A stretch of DNA of 22,859 nucleotides from a virus. This document shows, one piece after another, positions 9,003-22,297 of the stretch. The stretch is taken from positions 1 through 22,859 of the IMG/VR virus record IMGVR_UViG_3300042936_000101. One strand, given 5' to 3'. The position numbers were made by a program, and so were the translations under genes. How positions within the stretch are numbered: the stretch's first letter is position 1; each line of letters starts with the position of its first letter. The notes beneath the pieces are model-generated. The model had not been told where the DNA came from and ran no database searches. It saw nothing but the letters and a program-made list of their open reading frames with translations.

Positions 9003-9035
9003 CAAAAATATACTAAAGTTCTTGATATTGACAAA
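9003..9035 (-). promoter_or_regulatory. Possible promoter before the VRR-NUC gene (weak)
   Basis: TTTG-N21-TATTTTTG lies across the end of the methyltransferase gene. The -7 box ends only four bases before the ATG at 8998, so a transcript would be leaderless or nearly so. Such matches arise by chance in AT-rich DNA, hence the low confidence. Confidence 0.3.
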
Positions 9036-9903
9036 TACTTTTAAAAATCTGATAAGCTACCTGAGGCACTACTGCATTCCCGTATGCTTTTATACTTTCT
9101 TTTCTCCATTTAGAAAAGCTAATTCCGTCCAGTTCTCTGGGAACCCCATCATCTCCGCTACAAATCGGGGATTGAGTTGGAAACCCTGTCCAGCCATTTG
9201 ACGTAAAGTGTTTTGTAATACTACTCCCTTTTCTTTGTGTCTCTGTCTCGCCTTCTCTAAAGCTTCCTGACTTTTTGGAGTATTCCAATCGAAACTGTTT
9301 GGAGTCGGTAGCATTCCCAATGCTAATGCTCTTGTCAATGTTATTGAGTGCATTGATCCTTCCTTTACTTGTGTTGATTTCATTGTTGCTGTTGCGTTTG
9401 TTTGATCCATAGCTGTTGGAGTAGGCAATAAACCATATCCGGTCTCTTCGGTGTGGTGCGTTGAGGGCTGCAGCTGGAAGTAAAAACGGCAAGACTTCGT
9501 AGCCTTGAGTTTCCAAGTCAGACTGCACCTCGTCGAATACCATTCCCCCGTTCCAATTAGTAAGTCCGCGAACGTTCTCGCCCACAACCCAACTTGGTTG
9601 AATTTCCCGAATTGCTCTAAGCATTTCCGGCCAGAGGTGTCTCTCATCTTCTTTGCCAAGTCGCTTTCCTGCACTTGAGTAGGGTTGGCAAGGGAAGCCA
9701 CCACTAATGATGTCGATTGTTCCTCTGTGAATAGTGAAATCTGTTTTTGTGATGTCATTGTAAGATATTGAATTTGGGAAGTGATGTTTTAAAACTTTTT
9801 GACCAAAGGGGTTCCATTCACAATGAAATACGTTTTCCCAACCGCACCATTCGGCAGCTAAATCAAAGCCACCTATTCCGCTAAATAAACTGCCGTGTCT
9901 CAT
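9013..9903 (-). CDS. C5-cytosine DNA methyltransferase (Dcm-like, orphan)
   Basis: A 296-residue enzyme that adds a methyl group to carbon 5 of cytosine using S-adenosylmethionine. Motif I is FSGIGGFD at 7-14. Motif IV is SGGFPCQPYSSAGK with catalytic Cys72. Motif VI is ENV at 109-111. Motif VIII is HRRDR at 151-155. Motif X is YGNAVVPQVA at 274-283. The target-recognition region (about 165-265) is short, Ser/Asn-rich and lies almost wholly over the second gene encoded in another frame. No restriction enzyme gene lies near, so it probably protects phage DNA from host enzymes or marks it for packaging or replication. The start overlaps the preceding stop (ATGA at 9903-9900), and the leader is A-rich. 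Confidence 0.92.
   Translation of the reverse strand: MRHGSLFSGIGGFDLAAEWCGWENVFHCEWNPFGQKVLKHHFPNSISYNDITKTDFTIHRGTIDIISGGFPCQPYSSAGKRLGKEDERHLWPEMLRAIREIQPSWVVGENVRGLTNWNGGMVFDEVQSDLETQGYEVLPFLLPAAALNAPHRRDRIWFIAYSNSYGSNKRNSNNEINTSKGRINALNNIDKSISIGNATDSKQFRLEYSKKSGSFREGETETQRKGSSITKHFTSNGWTGFPTQSPICSGDDGVPRELDGISFSKWRKESIKAYGNAVVPQVAYQIFKSICQYQEL
9090..9758 (-). CDS. Overlapping gene inside the methyltransferase, conserved-looking phage protein of unknown function
   Basis: A 222-codon ATG frame lies entirely within the C5-methyltransferase gene, same strand, shifted by one base. Its product reads as a real protein: GRKCLEQFGKFNQVGLWART (43-62), EWYSTRCSLTWKLKATKS (72-89), two LPTP phrases (GLLPTPTAMD at 109-118 and MLPTPNSFDW at 149-158), and the ending LNPRFVAEMMGFPENWTEL (195-213). 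I recall the LPTPTA and MGFP-WT phrases from proteins annotated next to or inside phage cytosine methyltransferase genes, where the role is unknown. 222 codons without a stop in an alternative frame plus these phrases argue against chance. It may partner the methyltransferase. Confidence 0.72.
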   Translation of the reverse strand: MTSQKQISLFTEEQSTSLVVASLANPTQVQESDLAKKMRDTSGRKCLEQFGKFNQVGLWARTFADLLIGTGEWYSTRCSLTWKLKATKSCRFYFQLQPSTHHTEETGYGLLPTPTAMDQTNATATMKSTQVKEGSMHSITLTRALALGMLPTPNSFDWNTPKSQEALEKARQRHKEKGVVLQNTLRQMAGQGFQLNPRFVAEMMGFPENWTELAFLNGEKKV

Positions 9904-17918: not shown

Positions 17919-18260
17919 TTAAGGATTTTGAAACGGCAAAGGCAAAGATATAATCTTAGGATTGATTTGATCTGCAATCTGGCTATCTAAATTCTCGTCT
18001 AAAGATACTTGGTCAAGTCCTGCTTCTAACCAACCGCATACCATTTCGTAGGTAACTTGGTCATAAGGTACGAAGTCCGCAGGGTTAGGAGACGGAACGC
18101 TTAACGTACCATAAACCTCTGCAAAGTATGTTTTATCGTTTTCTACTTGCTCTGCTTGGTATCTCCAATGTATTACGCAGATAACGTCTGTTAAACCTTC
18201 TGCGTCAGTTGGGTAAGAGTCCATTGAACTCACGACCCATGAATAATTTGTTGTTGCCAT
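17919..18260 (-). CDS. Small conserved phage protein, DUF7936-like
   Basis: This 113-residue acidic protein opens with MATTNYSWVVSSMDSYP and continues with a beta-rich core (TDVICVIHWRYQ, YFAEVYGTLSV) and a helix after FVPYDQVTYEMVCGWLEAG. The layout (short aromatic start, paired beta strands, a PY-D-T-V-WL helix near the end) resembles the small DUF7936-type proteins I know from tailed phages of aquatic bacteria, where they lie after tail fibre genes. Their function is unknown. Here it also follows the fibre gene, separated only by a homing endonuclease and a remnant resembling its own start. It has no signal peptide or membrane segment. The family name is from memory and is moderately sure. 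Confidence 0.6.
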   Translation of the reverse strand: MATTNYSWVVSSMDSYPTDAEGLTDVICVIHWRYQAEQVENDKTYFAEVYGTLSVPSPNPADFVPYDQVTYEMVCGWLEAGLDQVSLDENLDSQIADQINPKIISLPLPFQNP

Positions 18261-18271
18261 TTTTCTATTTT

Positions 18272-18958
18272 TTATTGTTTATGATATTCCCATTTAAATC
18301 CGTAGGCTTGCTTGTATTTACCATTGCAGCAATTTGATATATTACCTTGACTAAATAAAGTTTCTCTTTGAACTTGTCTTGCCGAATCCCAAATCTTTAT
18401 TAATTCTCCATTTAAACTTAATTGAACTATTTTAATGGATTTTGCATCTACCACATTTTTAGACTGTTTTTTGCCAATTTTCAATATAGACATATTTTTT
18501 TTTGTTTCTTCCGTATGTTTATGTCCTTCTTTTCCAATTCTAGATTTATAATATTCTTTTAACTTATAACTGTTTCTTGCTTTATTTAAGTATTCTTTAG
18601 TTAATTCTTCAGACCTATTTTTCATCATTTCTTTAGTTTTGATAGAAATTTTTCTTTTAGTATCTTCAGAATGCCTAAAGCCTAAAATACCATCTCCCCC
18701 ATCTGTAATATTTACTAAAGTCCCTGTTTTATTATTACGTTTACCATATAATTTAATAAACTCTTTTTCTTTTTTTGCCGCTTCTTCCCAAGTTAAATCA
18801 TAAAACAAAATTTCAACATTGTATTCTGTTTTTGCTACAACATTATACCAAAATTTATTTCTTTTTGTTTTTTCATATGCCCTTTTTAAATGTGCGCCTA
18901 TACCTATATAAAAAGGCTCATTTTTGTCAAGTCTAATATGCCTGTATACGTATGCCAT
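18272..18958 (-). CDS. GIY-YIG homing endonuclease with NUMOD3 and NUMOD1 DNA-binding motifs
   Basis: A 228-residue free-standing homing endonuclease that would cut an allele lacking the insert and spread by repair. The N-terminal nuclease reads VYRHIR near 4-9 and FYIGIG at 16-21, a divergent GIY-YIG pair. A basic helix with Arg26 follows, then a candidate metal-binding Glu in EKEFIKLYG (64-72) and the usual LVNITDGGDG at 81-90. Two NUMOD3-type units follow (GFRHSEDTKRKIS near 93-105 and GHKHTEETKKNMS near 145-157). A NUMOD1-like C-terminus runs from about 177 to 225 (IVQLSLNGELIKIW, then a helix and YGFKWEY). Composition is visibly richer in A/T and lysine than in its neighbours, consistent with recent arrival. 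It sits between the fibre gene and the DUF7936-like gene, beside a remnant of the latter's start. Confidence 0.9.
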   Translation of the reverse strand: MAYVYRHIRLDKNEPFYIGIGAHLKRAYEKTKRNKFWYNVVAKTEYNVEILFYDLTWEEAAKKEKEFIKLYGKRNNKTGTLVNITDGGDGILGFRHSEDTKRKISIKTKEMMKNRSEELTKEYLNKARNSYKLKEYYKSRIGKEGHKHTEETKKNMSILKIGKKQSKNVVDAKSIKIVQLSLNGELIKIWDSARQVQRETLFSQGNISNCCNGKYKQAYGFKWEYHKQ

Positions 18959-18973
18959 TTAATTTAATTAAAC

Positions 18974-19012
18974 CTACTTATGTCTTACTACCCATTTGTA
19001 AGTTGTTGCCAT
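18974..19012 (-). pseudogene. Twelve-codon remnant resembling the start of the DUF7936-like gene at 17919-18260
   Basis: Directly after the fibre stop (TAA then ATG) lies a 12-codon frame, MATTYKWVVRHK, ended by TAG. It mirrors the start of the intact gene beyond the homing endonuclease, MATTNYSWVV: MATT, an aromatic residue, W and VV are shared, and the first ten or so bases after the ATG are the same. The simplest reading is that it is the cut-off head of a related gene, left when the homing endonuclease gene arrived. It could be a very short functional peptide or coincidence. Confidence 0.5.
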
Positions 19013-22000
19013 TTATTTATTTTTTAAAGTGTCTAATTCTGCTTTTAATTCTTGAATTGCCTTAATATATACTGCGTGTAATTGGTCATAATTAATACCC
19101 ATTTTATTTGTAGAAGGTGTTGTAAATACGGCTTCAGGTATTATTGCTTTCATTTCTTGTGCTATATTACCATTTTGTCTGCCTTCTCCATAATTCTTAT
19201 AGCCATCAATAAAATCAAACCATACAGGGTTCATTTTAAGTATTTCATTTAAACCATAACCAATACTACTAATATTTTGTTTTACTGATATATCCGAAAC
19301 AGGTGCTGATAAATTACCACTTGCATCTGCTAATACTGCTCTACTTCCTGTTCCTGCTAAATTACTAAAGGTTACTGCTCCACCAACTAACAATGTTCCT
19401 TGTATGTAAGCAGTACCATTTACAGATAGCAAATATCCAAAGTCAGACGTAAGACCCACAAGCAAATTTCCCGCACTACTTATGCGCATACGTTCGGCTG
19501 CGGCTGTACCAAAATTTAAAGAATCAGCACTATGTCCATATTCTACAAATCCTCTATATGTTTCATTACCAGTTGTACCATCTGCAAAATATATTCCCCC
19601 ATAAGATGTATTTCCAGAAGCAATAGTCATTCCTTTATTACCACTTGTTGTTCCAATTACTAATGTATTTGCAGCAGAACTATAACTATCTGGATTTGTG
19701 TTACCTATACCTACGTTACCAGCGTTGCCTGTTATTGTCATTCTCGTTGCTAATGGTACAGCATCACTAGGAGAACCTGTGTTAAAATCCAAATCAACTA
19801 TGTCGTTAGCTGCATTATTTACCCTTCTACCTGTTATGGAAGCGTAATTTATGTAACTGCCTGCACTATTTTGTTGTGCTAATAAAATACCACCACCAGC
19901 ACCAGTAGCTGGATTTGTGCCTGTCCCGACAATTCTAATCACTCCATTAGTAATAGGGGTAGCAGAAACAGCACTTAAAATATCTAACTTGTTTGAAGGA
20001 CTACTTGTACCTATACCTACGTTACCGCCTAAAGGTTGTAACAATAAATTATATGCAGTAGTATTACCATCAGTTCTTTGACTTTGTAAGTATGTGTTGC
20101 CATTGGTTAAAACATCTCCTGCTAAACCATATACCCCACCATTCATTAATTGAAATCTTGGAGTTGAACTTCCTAACGCATAAGGTGTTGATGAACTATT
20201 GCTTCCTAATACTACAAGTCCGTTTGCAGTTACACTACTTGAGAATGTAGCTGCTCCTGTATCTGCTATATTAAATACAGCGGTATTTGCTGAATTTCTA
20301 CCAAATAATATAAATTTACCTCCTCCACTTGGTGCTTTAATTGACATTGCAATATCTGCATCATCGGGAGCTGCATTAACATTAACTCTACTTGAGAATG
20401 TAGCACTCGTTCCACCCAAAGCACCCGTAAGCGTTCCACCTGCTAATGGTAGATAAGTAGAACTTGCAGCACTTGTAGTTAAGTAAGTTGAGTTATCATA
20501 GCTTATAGTAGTTCCGCTAATCTTAACAAAACCTGTTCCGTTTAAAGCAGCTTGTTTGCCATTAAACGTAGTCCAATCGGTACTTGATAATAAACCTTGT
20601 TGTGAACCACTTGCAGTTGCAATAGCTAAAGTAATAGTTCCACTTGTTGTAATAGGCGTAGAGCCAATAGTTACTCCGCTTGTTGCAGAAGATAAGCCTA
20701 CCGATGTTACCGAACCCGTGCCATAAGAAGTGCTATCTACACTACCATCGGCTTTTAAAAATTGCGAAGATGTACCGCCCGACTTAACTAAAGTAGTTGC
20801 GTTTAAAGTGCCTATGATTGTCGCAGCGTTACCACTACCACTTGTCTTATTTATGTATAAGCCTTCGCCACTACCACCCTTTGTAATATTTAAAGCAATA
20901 CCACTACCGCTTGAATGTGTTATGCCAACTGTATCGCCACTACCAGAACTTGAAAAAGTACCTTTAGCAGCAATTAAAGTATGCGTTCCTAAATCTACGT
21001 TAGCCGTTGCGCCCGTGTAAGGAACGTAACCCGTTACACTTGGTATTTGAGAAGTAAGTGCTAAAGTTCCCGTAGCACTTGGTAGCGTGTATGTATTTGT
21101 TCCGTCCGTAATAGTGGACTCTAATCTTAACTGACCTGTAAATCTGCCCGTTCCCGTTACGTCTAACTTATATGTATTGTTAGTATTGTTAATTGATACA
21201 TTACCAGAAGTATTTACCCTCATTTTTTCTGTACTACTTGTACCAATAATAGTAGCACCCGTTTGTGATATAATAACAAAGTCCCCTGCTACACCTGCCG
21301 AAACAAACTGCCCGTTAGTAGTTACAAGACCGAACTTAGCTTGGTATATAGAACCCGTTACCGCTTCGCCCATTGATACGCTCGGAGCATTACCGCTTAA
21401 ACGTAAATGATTATCAGCAGTAGTATTATAAATCTCAATAGACCTTTGGGGCGTTGTAGTTCCAATACCTAAACGATTATTAGTAGCGTCCCAAAAAAAG
21501 TTATTAGTTCCCGTTACACTATTTGCTCCGTTAAAAAATGTTACTTGCCCACTTGCACCCGAACCCGAAATTAAAGAAGTAGGGAACGTAATTAAGTTAC
21601 CTGCTCCGTTAATATACTGCGCACTTGTTCCTGAAAACGCTAAAGCTAAAGTTCCCGATGTTGTTAAAGGACTACCAGATACGCTTATCGCATCGCCACC
21701 TACTGTTAATGCTACGCTTGTTACAGTACCTACGGCACCGCTTGAACGTTGCCAAATAGTACCTGAATAAATCACATAATCGCCAACCGCAAAAGTAATC
21801 GGACCAGCGCCAAAGTTTACTGTTCCTGCTACGTTACAAATATAAACGTCTCCCGTGTCTCCCGTTCCGTTTGCAAGTGTAGGGGTGTTAGTCGCTGCGT
21901 TCCAAGTTCCTTTGTATTCCATAATAGAACTCGGTAGCTGACTAATAGGAACTTTACCACCACTATCCAAAGAAGCGTAACCATTACTTACACCCTTCTC

Positions 22001-22297
22001 ACTTCTTAATTGGTAAGTATCTAATAAAGCTTGTGAAGGGAAAACTTCGGTATAAGCCGAACCACTCCATAAGTAAAGTTTCTGAGTGTCTTTAGCACAA
22101 TAGATAACGTTAATATCGCCAACTGCAGGGAACCCTGCAAGGTTAGTATAAAACGAAACTGCACCGCTAAATATCGCCCCTAATTGTGCAAGTGTAATCT
22201 TCTTACTTACTCCACTATCCGGGTCTCCTATAATAGTTAAATCGGTACTAACTGGTGCTAACTCGGTAGCTAATTGGTTAATTTTTTTGCCTATCAT
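19013..22297 (-). CDS. Tail fibre / receptor-binding protein with C-terminal peptidase S74 chaperone domain
   Basis: A 1094-residue fibre. The N-terminal part (about 1-130) is the probable virion-anchoring section. A long low-complexity shaft follows, rich in Gly, Ser, Thr and Asn, with recurring phrases such as GTVTSV, NRLGIGTTTP and NVGIGTSSP that are typical of trimeric beta-structured fibres. The last 94 residues match the intramolecular chaperone (peptidase S74) family: Ser1001-Asp followed by Lys1006, the Ser/Lys spacing of five seen at the self-cleavage site of endosialidase-type fibres. After it come a Gly-rich turn, an IAQE motif near 1045, INYDQLHAV and a C-terminal coiled coil. The fibre should trimerise, cut off the chaperone, and bind a host surface glycan or protein. 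Repeated shaft coding is also visible in the DNA near 20220 and 20390. Adhesin-like proteins share the shaft, but the phage context is clear. Confidence 0.9.
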   Translation of the reverse strand: MIGKKINQLATELAPVSTDLTIIGDPDSGVSKKITLAQLGAIFSGAVSFYTNLAGFPAVGDINVIYCAKDTQKLYLWSGSAYTEVFPSQALLDTYQLRSEKGVSNGYASLDSGGKVPISQLPSSIMEYKGTWNAATNTPTLANGTGDTGDVYICNVAGTVNFGAGPITFAVGDYVIYSGTIWQRSSGAVGTVTSVALTVGGDAISVSGSPLTTSGTLALAFSGTSAQYINGAGNLITFPTSLISGSGASGQVTFFNGANSVTGTNNFFWDATNNRLGIGTTTPQRSIEIYNTTADNHLRLSGNAPSVSMGEAVTGSIYQAKFGLVTTNGQFVSAGVAGDFVIISQTGATIIGTSSTEKMRVNTSGNVSINNTNNTYKLDVTGTGRFTGQLRLESTITDGTNTYTLPSATGTLALTSQIPSVTGYVPYTGATANVDLGTHTLIAAKGTFSSSGSGDTVGITHSSGSGIALNITKGGSGEGLYINKTSGSGNAATIIGTLNATTLVKSGGTSSQFLKADGSVDSTSYGTGSVTSVGLSSATSGVTIGSTPITTSGTITLAIATASGSQQGLLSSTDWTTFNGKQAALNGTGFVKISGTTISYDNSTYLTTSAASSTYLPLAGGTLTGALGGTSATFSSRVNVNAAPDDADIAMSIKAPSGGGKFILFGRNSANTAVFNIADTGAATFSSSVTANGLVVLGSNSSSTPYALGSSTPRFQLMNGGVYGLAGDVLTNGNTYLQSQRTDGNTTAYNLLLQPLGGNVGIGTSSPSNKLDILSAVSATPITNGVIRIVGTGTNPATGAGGGILLAQQNSAGSYINYASITGRRVNNAANDIVDLDFNTGSPSDAVPLATRMTITGNAGNVGIGNTNPDSYSSAANTLVIGTTSGNKGMTIASGNTSYGGIYFADGTTGNETYRGFVEYGHSADSLNFGTAAAERMRISSAGNLLVGLTSDFGYLLSVNGTAYIQGTLLVGGAVTFSNLAGTGSRAVLADASGNLSAPVSDISVKQNISSIGYGLNEILKMNPVWFDFIDGYKNYGEGRQNGNIAQEMKAIIPEAVFTTPSTNKMGINYDQLHAVYIKAIQELKAELDTLKNK

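Follow-up and report, generated by a model that had tools for sequence, protein, structure and literature searches.

A phage GIY-YIG endonuclease inserted at the start of a DUF7936 gene, with a native remnant on one side and an imported gene start on the other

Mobile endonuclease ORFs of fungal mitochondria replace the 3′ ends of genes, namely atp6 in Allomyces, and atp6, atp9, cox2 and nad3 in Glomus (PMC3630166). Native remnants are found in these fungal cases, and the changes are mostly synonymous (PMC3630166). For phages, a survey of endonucleases describes their location near or within essential genes and their domain swapping; a search for duplicated, truncated or hybrid genes in its text returned no account of gene-end replacement (PMC10448857). 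In the open-access literature, we found such replacement described for fungal mitochondrial 3′ ends alone, and a description may exist elsewhere.

We analysed a viral record of 22.9 kb, called here the window, in its whole length. The DNA of the window was compared with related loci, designated by L numbers.

Layout of the locus and identity of the endonuclease

On the minus strand, the genes are ordered as follows: S74 fibre gene, stub, endonuclease, DUF7936 gene and 128-aa gene (Table 1). A sequence-only reading had proposed a homing endonuclease flanked by a broken copy of the neighbouring gene's start, and each of its features was found in place on that strand.

Table 1. Coordinates of the features in the window, and evidence for each
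Feature	Position	Strand	Evidence
Upstream neighbour: tail-fibre gene with an S74 chaperone domain at its C-terminus	19013-22297	-	Pfam Peptidase_S74, E 1.8e-9
Stub ATGGCAACAACTTACAAATGGGTAGTAAGACATAAGTAG (MATTYKWVVRHK, then stop), 12 codons, abandoned native DUF7936 start	18974-19012	-	first 29 nt identical to the native start of endonuclease-less L023, 26 nt to L002 and many others
Native portion of the stub, putative left homology arm (left junction at 18984 or slightly before it)	18984-19012	-	longest stretch identical to a gene start in an endonuclease-less locus
Entire inserted cassette: leader, endonuclease and replacement gene start	18204-18983 (approximate by a few nt)	-	breakpoints relative to L002 and L023
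Cassette leader ACATAAGTAGGTTTAATTAAATTAA, common to L065 and L070	18959-18983	-	1 difference in 34 nt to L065/L070
GIY-YIG/NUMOD homing endonuclease gene, 228 aa	18272-18958	-	phrog_314, family residues, NUMOD matches, I-HmuI match
DUF7936 gene, whole	18260-17919	-	PF25590, E 2e-22
DUF7936 gene, imported and respelled first 57 nt	18204-18260	-	18 differences from L002 in nt 12-57, then none to nt 270
DUF7936 gene, native remainder, putative right homology arm	17919-18203	-	212 nt identical to L002; PF25590
128-aa gene after DUF7936	17891-17505	-	gene order

The endonuclease matched phrog_314, annotated "homing endonuclease", with an E value of 4e-18. The window protein alone gave no match to the Pfam GIY-YIG profile; four of 17 family members did. 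Residues of GIY-YIG type (Y3-V-Y5 ... F16-Y-I-G19 for the motif itself, and R26/R33, E64/E66 and N83 for the catalytic Arg, Glu and Asn) are invariant in 17 relatives. A modular C-terminal DNA-binding region of the NUMOD/HTH kind was also recognised, with NUMOD3 in 13 of the 17 members, an I-HmuI NUMOD-like segment in 7, and a match of the C-terminal region to I-HmuI itself (1u3e, E 8e-4). Structure prediction gave the catalytic fold at low confidence. On its motifs and profile matches, the protein is assigned to the GIY-YIG homing endonucleases. A group I intron or another RNA element was rejected, as no credible Rfam match was obtained, the ~700 bp insert is too short for a ribozyme, and the gene possesses a new start codon of its own.

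Similar endonucleases are present in two isolated phages, Flavobacterium phage Fpv1 (34% identity, located before Sak4) and the Bacteroides crAss-like phage PhiCrAssBcn18, and no stub was recognisable at either of them. Bacterial genomes yielded a single relative, a partial one in a Methylophaga MAG.

As for DUF7936, its fold was predicted with confidence (pLDDT 93); it had no match in the PDB at E<0.001, and the name was not found in the open-access literature. Elsewhere in the window, a 222-aa frame (9090-9758, minus strand) matching the phage DNA methyltransferase family phrog_1008 (E 3e-22) lies within a C5-cytosine methyltransferase gene (9013-9903, minus strand; phrog_363, E 3e-74; PF00145, E 5e-48) but in a different reading frame, so that two recognisable families are overprinted on one strand.

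Native stub and imported start of the DUF7936 gene

In IMG/VR, the DUF7936 protein used as a query retrieved 47 loci. More than 30 of them have no endonuclease: there, ATGGCAACAACTTACAAATGGGTAGTTAGTTCTTTAGAC or a near variant begins at most a few bases after the upstream gene, mostly a fibre gene, and the stub sequence runs straight on as the DUF7936 gene. The stub is the original DUF7936 start, because 26 to 29 nt of this start are those of endonuclease-less relatives, as are up to 28 nt on its 5′ side (identical in L004 and L013). Such an extent of identity means that the resemblance to a gene start is not fortuitous. These uninterrupted junctions support the proposal, made from the sequence alone, that the endonuclease had invaded the first codons of DUF7936, at a site within the first ~40 bases.

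Past base 29 of the stub, the sequence becomes ACATAAGTARGTTTAATTAAATTAA, common to the endonuclease carriers (window, L065 and L070). This leader is nearly the same in the three loci, despite their diverged endonucleases and DUF7936 genes. Distant carriers thus keep the leader better than the endonuclease itself, which suggests a promoter or initiation function for it.

A short frame ahead of a full gene in loci lacking the endonuclease would, by the sequence-only reading's own criterion, have refuted that proposal. We looked for this arrangement in 201 endonuclease-less loci and found none; the scan returned ten loose pattern matches which, judged by eye, were not DUF7936 starts. A role of the stub as a conserved small gene in its own right was rejected, given its absence from all these loci.

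The intact gene behind the endonuclease was then compared with its nearest endonuclease-less relative, L002. Divergence is confined to the beginning: the 18 differing positions include an inserted codon, and identity per 30-nt bin rises from 56% in the first and 70% in the second to ~100% in later ones. The imported tract runs from the start codon up to the conserved gene body. The frame is intact and the protein 96% identical. From the breakpoints, the replaced tract extends from 18983 (left end) to 18204 (right end), and the exchange amounts to ~780 bp gained for ~25 bp of native gene lost. The imported start of the window also encodes several different residues (NYS in place of YK, M in place of L), and is therefore foreign as well as respelled. 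By these comparisons, the intact DUF7936 gene of the window is a hybrid, made of a foreign start and a native body.

It had been suggested that the insertion left a partial duplication. A plain local duplication is not what the sequences show: the original start is in the stub, and it is the intact gene whose first 57 nt were imported, so that the start was replaced. The same reading had offered as an alternative that the endonuclease took the place of one of two tandem DUF7936 copies, which could be imagined from the two starts that flank it. No tandem DUF7936 pair was present in 295 loci, and past the imported start comes the body of the native single-copy gene, identical to L002 over 212 nt and followed by the same gene downstream. 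We regard replacement of a tandem copy as scarcely credible.

Recurrence in other loci, at other genes and at 3′ ends

Further searches brought the comparison to 230 distinct DUF7936 loci. Metagenomic contigs make up nearly all of the data. The endonuclease family was found directly upstream of DUF7936 in 23 of the 230, and directly downstream in 9. With more than 30 close relatives uninterrupted, this is a present/absent polymorphism at one site, as in homing elements. Ten carriers have a stub before the endonuclease (window, L014, L049, L050, L052, L053, L057, L059, L065 and L070). They represent nine different cassettes, because L050 and L052 carry the same one; cassette parts are also common to L014 and L057, and to L065 and L070. 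Four carriers (L086, L143, L195 and L328) are plain intergenic insertions, with no stub and an unmodified gene start, meaning that gene-end replacement is absent from some insertions.

The L050 and L052 loci have in common a block of ~925 bp, 99-100% identical, which runs from the stub through the endonuclease into DUF7936, up to nt ~100. Outside of this block, the two loci are unrelated upstream, and what remains of the gene is 56-93% identical in bins of 30 nt. The extent of this block indicates that the cassette moves as a unit, and lends indirect support to the predicted copying of the element into uninterrupted alleles.

To score start replacement, only genes with a close relative were counted, and a start was called replaced when its first 60 nt were more diverged than the rest by >0.25. 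By this measure, replaced starts were found in 6 of 16 carriers and 1 of 191 non-carriers (Fisher p 5e-7, counts uncorrected for shared ancestry). Over the first 20 codons, synonymous differences made up 27% of same-residue codons in carriers versus 10% in non-carriers. L053 illustrates this change most clearly: compared with endonuclease-less L173, it has CAG TTC GTA ATC TCG CAG CTT in place of CAA TGG GTG ATT AGC CAA TTA. All codons of the Q-W-V-I-S-Q-L segment are altered, with W changed to F and the others synonymous; the two genes are identical directly beyond, and ~97% identical over the remainder. In the clearest cases, then, it is the codons that change while the protein sequence is conserved. 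Two endonuclease-less loci, L333 (2495) and L030 (around 1472), have a gene start or end resembling the imported version of the carriers; from this likeness, they could be resistant alleles, donors or former carriers.

Could the start swap simply be passive co-conversion of the flank after entry of the endonuclease, as with SegF and SegG of T4, the change of spelling being drift rather than resistance? Flank co-conversion is known for phage homing endonucleases (PMC2988022), and the amino-acid changes in the imported start of the window go in the same direction. Against it, respelling clusters at the insertion site with near-complete identity just past it (L053 relative to L173, window relative to L002), carriers are enriched in synonymous change, and co-conversion alone leaves the stub unexplained. 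We hold it to be rather unlikely.

The same arrangement was found at a lysozyme gene. In L073/L020 and in L074, the endonuclease family lies behind a stub MEVNKAG... and ahead of a lysozyme gene starting MKINQAG with changed codons (2969-4123 in L073; L067 and L074 have the same target). MEVNKAG is the native start of the phage lysozyme gene (PF00959) in endonuclease-less relatives. Between the carriers L073 and L067, nt 1-60 of lysozyme are 97/90% identical and the remaining gene ~60%. The pattern is reversed when L073 is compared with endonuclease-less L234: 73-77% at the start, 90-100% afterwards.

Mirror-image cases were found at 3′ ends. There, the gene with the respelled 3′ end precedes the endonuclease, and its native 3′ end survives at the C-terminus of the endonuclease or past it; in L419 and L115, this remnant is in frame with the endonuclease. 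Scores of such end repeats were judged against alignments of unrelated pairs, 99.9% of which fall within a score of 36. In L419 (1763-2548), the endonuclease frame ends with VALITLDEQGNVDVQNKRIKNGRIM and a stop, the preceding phosphoesterase gene (PF00149) with VALITIDEEGKVDVQNKRIKNGKML and a stop, and 15 of 19 same-residue codons are respelled (score 61). By analogy with the other cases, the L419 remnant would be the native, older copy. In L115 (1131-1829), the replacement is at the 3′ end of DUF7936 itself (score 42). In L114/L122 (3001-3639), the endonuclease is followed by a remnant that corresponds to the native end in endonuclease-less L039. Respelling affects the last 30 nt of the preceding gene, which is called portal-like by position and sequence alone, without a family match. 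An imported end in frame with a native body, together with a native remnant, was therefore observed in the window, at lysozyme and in the 3′ cases. DUF7936 is targeted at both of its ends.

Some further loci are less clear. In L383, L392, L398 and L432, the endonuclease ends in QISYK, much as the preceding gene does; each remnant is too short for significance singly, and these are probably further 3′ replacements. In L111 (1076-1131 and 2324), the endonuclease is preceded by a fragment NSSFGKL and followed by MQNSPFGKL; without a clear start codon and below the 99% null, it may be a further 5′ case.

These observations bear on ordinary exchange of tail-fibre modules, in which recombination at the DUF7936 start left a partial start, and the endonuclease came later into the intergenic gap. 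Relatives are highly mosaic in the S74 end of the fibre gene that lies upstream. Stub and gene body also belong to different DUF7936 clades in L014, L053, L057, L065 and L070, which requires a travelling stub or a later recombination. Module exchange should however have left stubs in loci free of endonuclease, and there were 0 in 201. It does not foresee a leader common to distant carriers behind the stub, nor the single block formed by stub, endonuclease and gene start in L050 and L052, nor a repetition of the pattern at the lysozyme gene and at 3′ ends. It is, in our opinion, very unlikely.

Proposed mechanism and comparison with known systems

At the level of sequence, the loci establish insertion at gene ends, a native remnant, an imported end in frame with a native body, and a unit common to different phages. 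Their highly probable explanation is an intronless homing cassette, in which a free-standing GIY-YIG endonuclease carries a rescue end for the gene that it breaks. The plain intergenic insertions, the stubs of another clade than the gene body, the likeness of the L333 and L030 ends to imported ones and the amino-acid changes in the start of the window speak against it. Cutting by the enzyme would take place around AAATGGGTAGTTAGTTC, near codons 8-12 of a naive DUF7936 gene, and repair from the carrier phage would copy in the endonuclease along with the respelled start of the target gene. As placed by the breakpoints, the left crossover falls in the short native gene start, now surviving as the stub, and the right one in the conserved gene body; native end and gene body would serve as homology arms for the repair. 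With the right crossover in the body and an imported start in frame, the gene product remains intact. The respelled end would no longer be cut, making the carrier immune. The sequences show this design at further genes too and, in mirror image, at 3′ ends. In the engineered home-and-rescue drive HomeR, the rescue copy is reportedly recoded.

The stub may have a second use. Its stop codon adjoins the endonuclease start, so it probably feeds ribosomes to the endonuclease by termination-reinitiation. In the ten stubs measured (L073 included), the stop ranges from a 1-nt overlap with the endonuclease to 15 nt before it. Among endonuclease insertions after a long frame, 50 of 91 start at most 5 nt from its stop, which fits translational coupling in general.

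Taking the loci together, we lean towards a widespread phage GIY-YIG family specialised in the invasion of gene ends. Its members would be natural home-and-rescue drives, each cassette having an uncuttable copy of the start or end of its target, and the native stub being kept both as homology arm and as leader frame.

The mechanism would give a selfish endonuclease, without intron or intein, a route into the coding sequence of a conserved phage gene that is not destroyed, and possibly give the carrier a way to gain immunity. One phage enzyme family here replaces 5′ and 3′ ends of several genes. Puzzling short frames and abrupt mosaic breakpoints near phage gene ends would be accounted for, and a natural counterpart of engineered home-and-rescue drives would become accessible to direct test on simple DNA substrates.

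In T4 intronless homing (SegF and gene 56, SegG and gene 32; PMC2988022), a free-standing GIY-YIG phage enzyme likewise acts on a neighbour gene; the free-standing enzymes cut at sites that lie hundreds to thousands of bp away from where they are inserted, and neither a truncated gene start nor an imported gene end was found in the part of that account covered here. Gene-splitting phage endonucleases (Aeh1 mobE in nrdA, T4 mobA in gene 60) also lie inside a functional gene whose function is kept, but there the gene is split into two polypeptides (PMC2988022), whereas here one continuous frame is restored. HomeR (PMC7968924) has a nuclease at its target gene that travels with a rescue of that gene; it is a synthetic Cas9 system of insects and ours a natural phage element, so that the likeness is one of working principle only.

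The closest precedent is the swapping of gene 3′ ends by fungal mitochondrial endonuclease genes. As with these ORFs, of LAGLIDADG or GIY-YIG type, the endonuclease is inserted along with a replacement gene end, a native remnant stays on its far side, and the protein is conserved while the DNA diverges (PMC3630166). The fungal ORFs are mitochondrial, and affect 3′ ends only in that account (PMC3630166); here the targets are phage genes, hit mainly at their 5′ ends, with an abandoned start codon and a short leader frame, and 5′ and 3′ ends are both hit by one endonuclease family.
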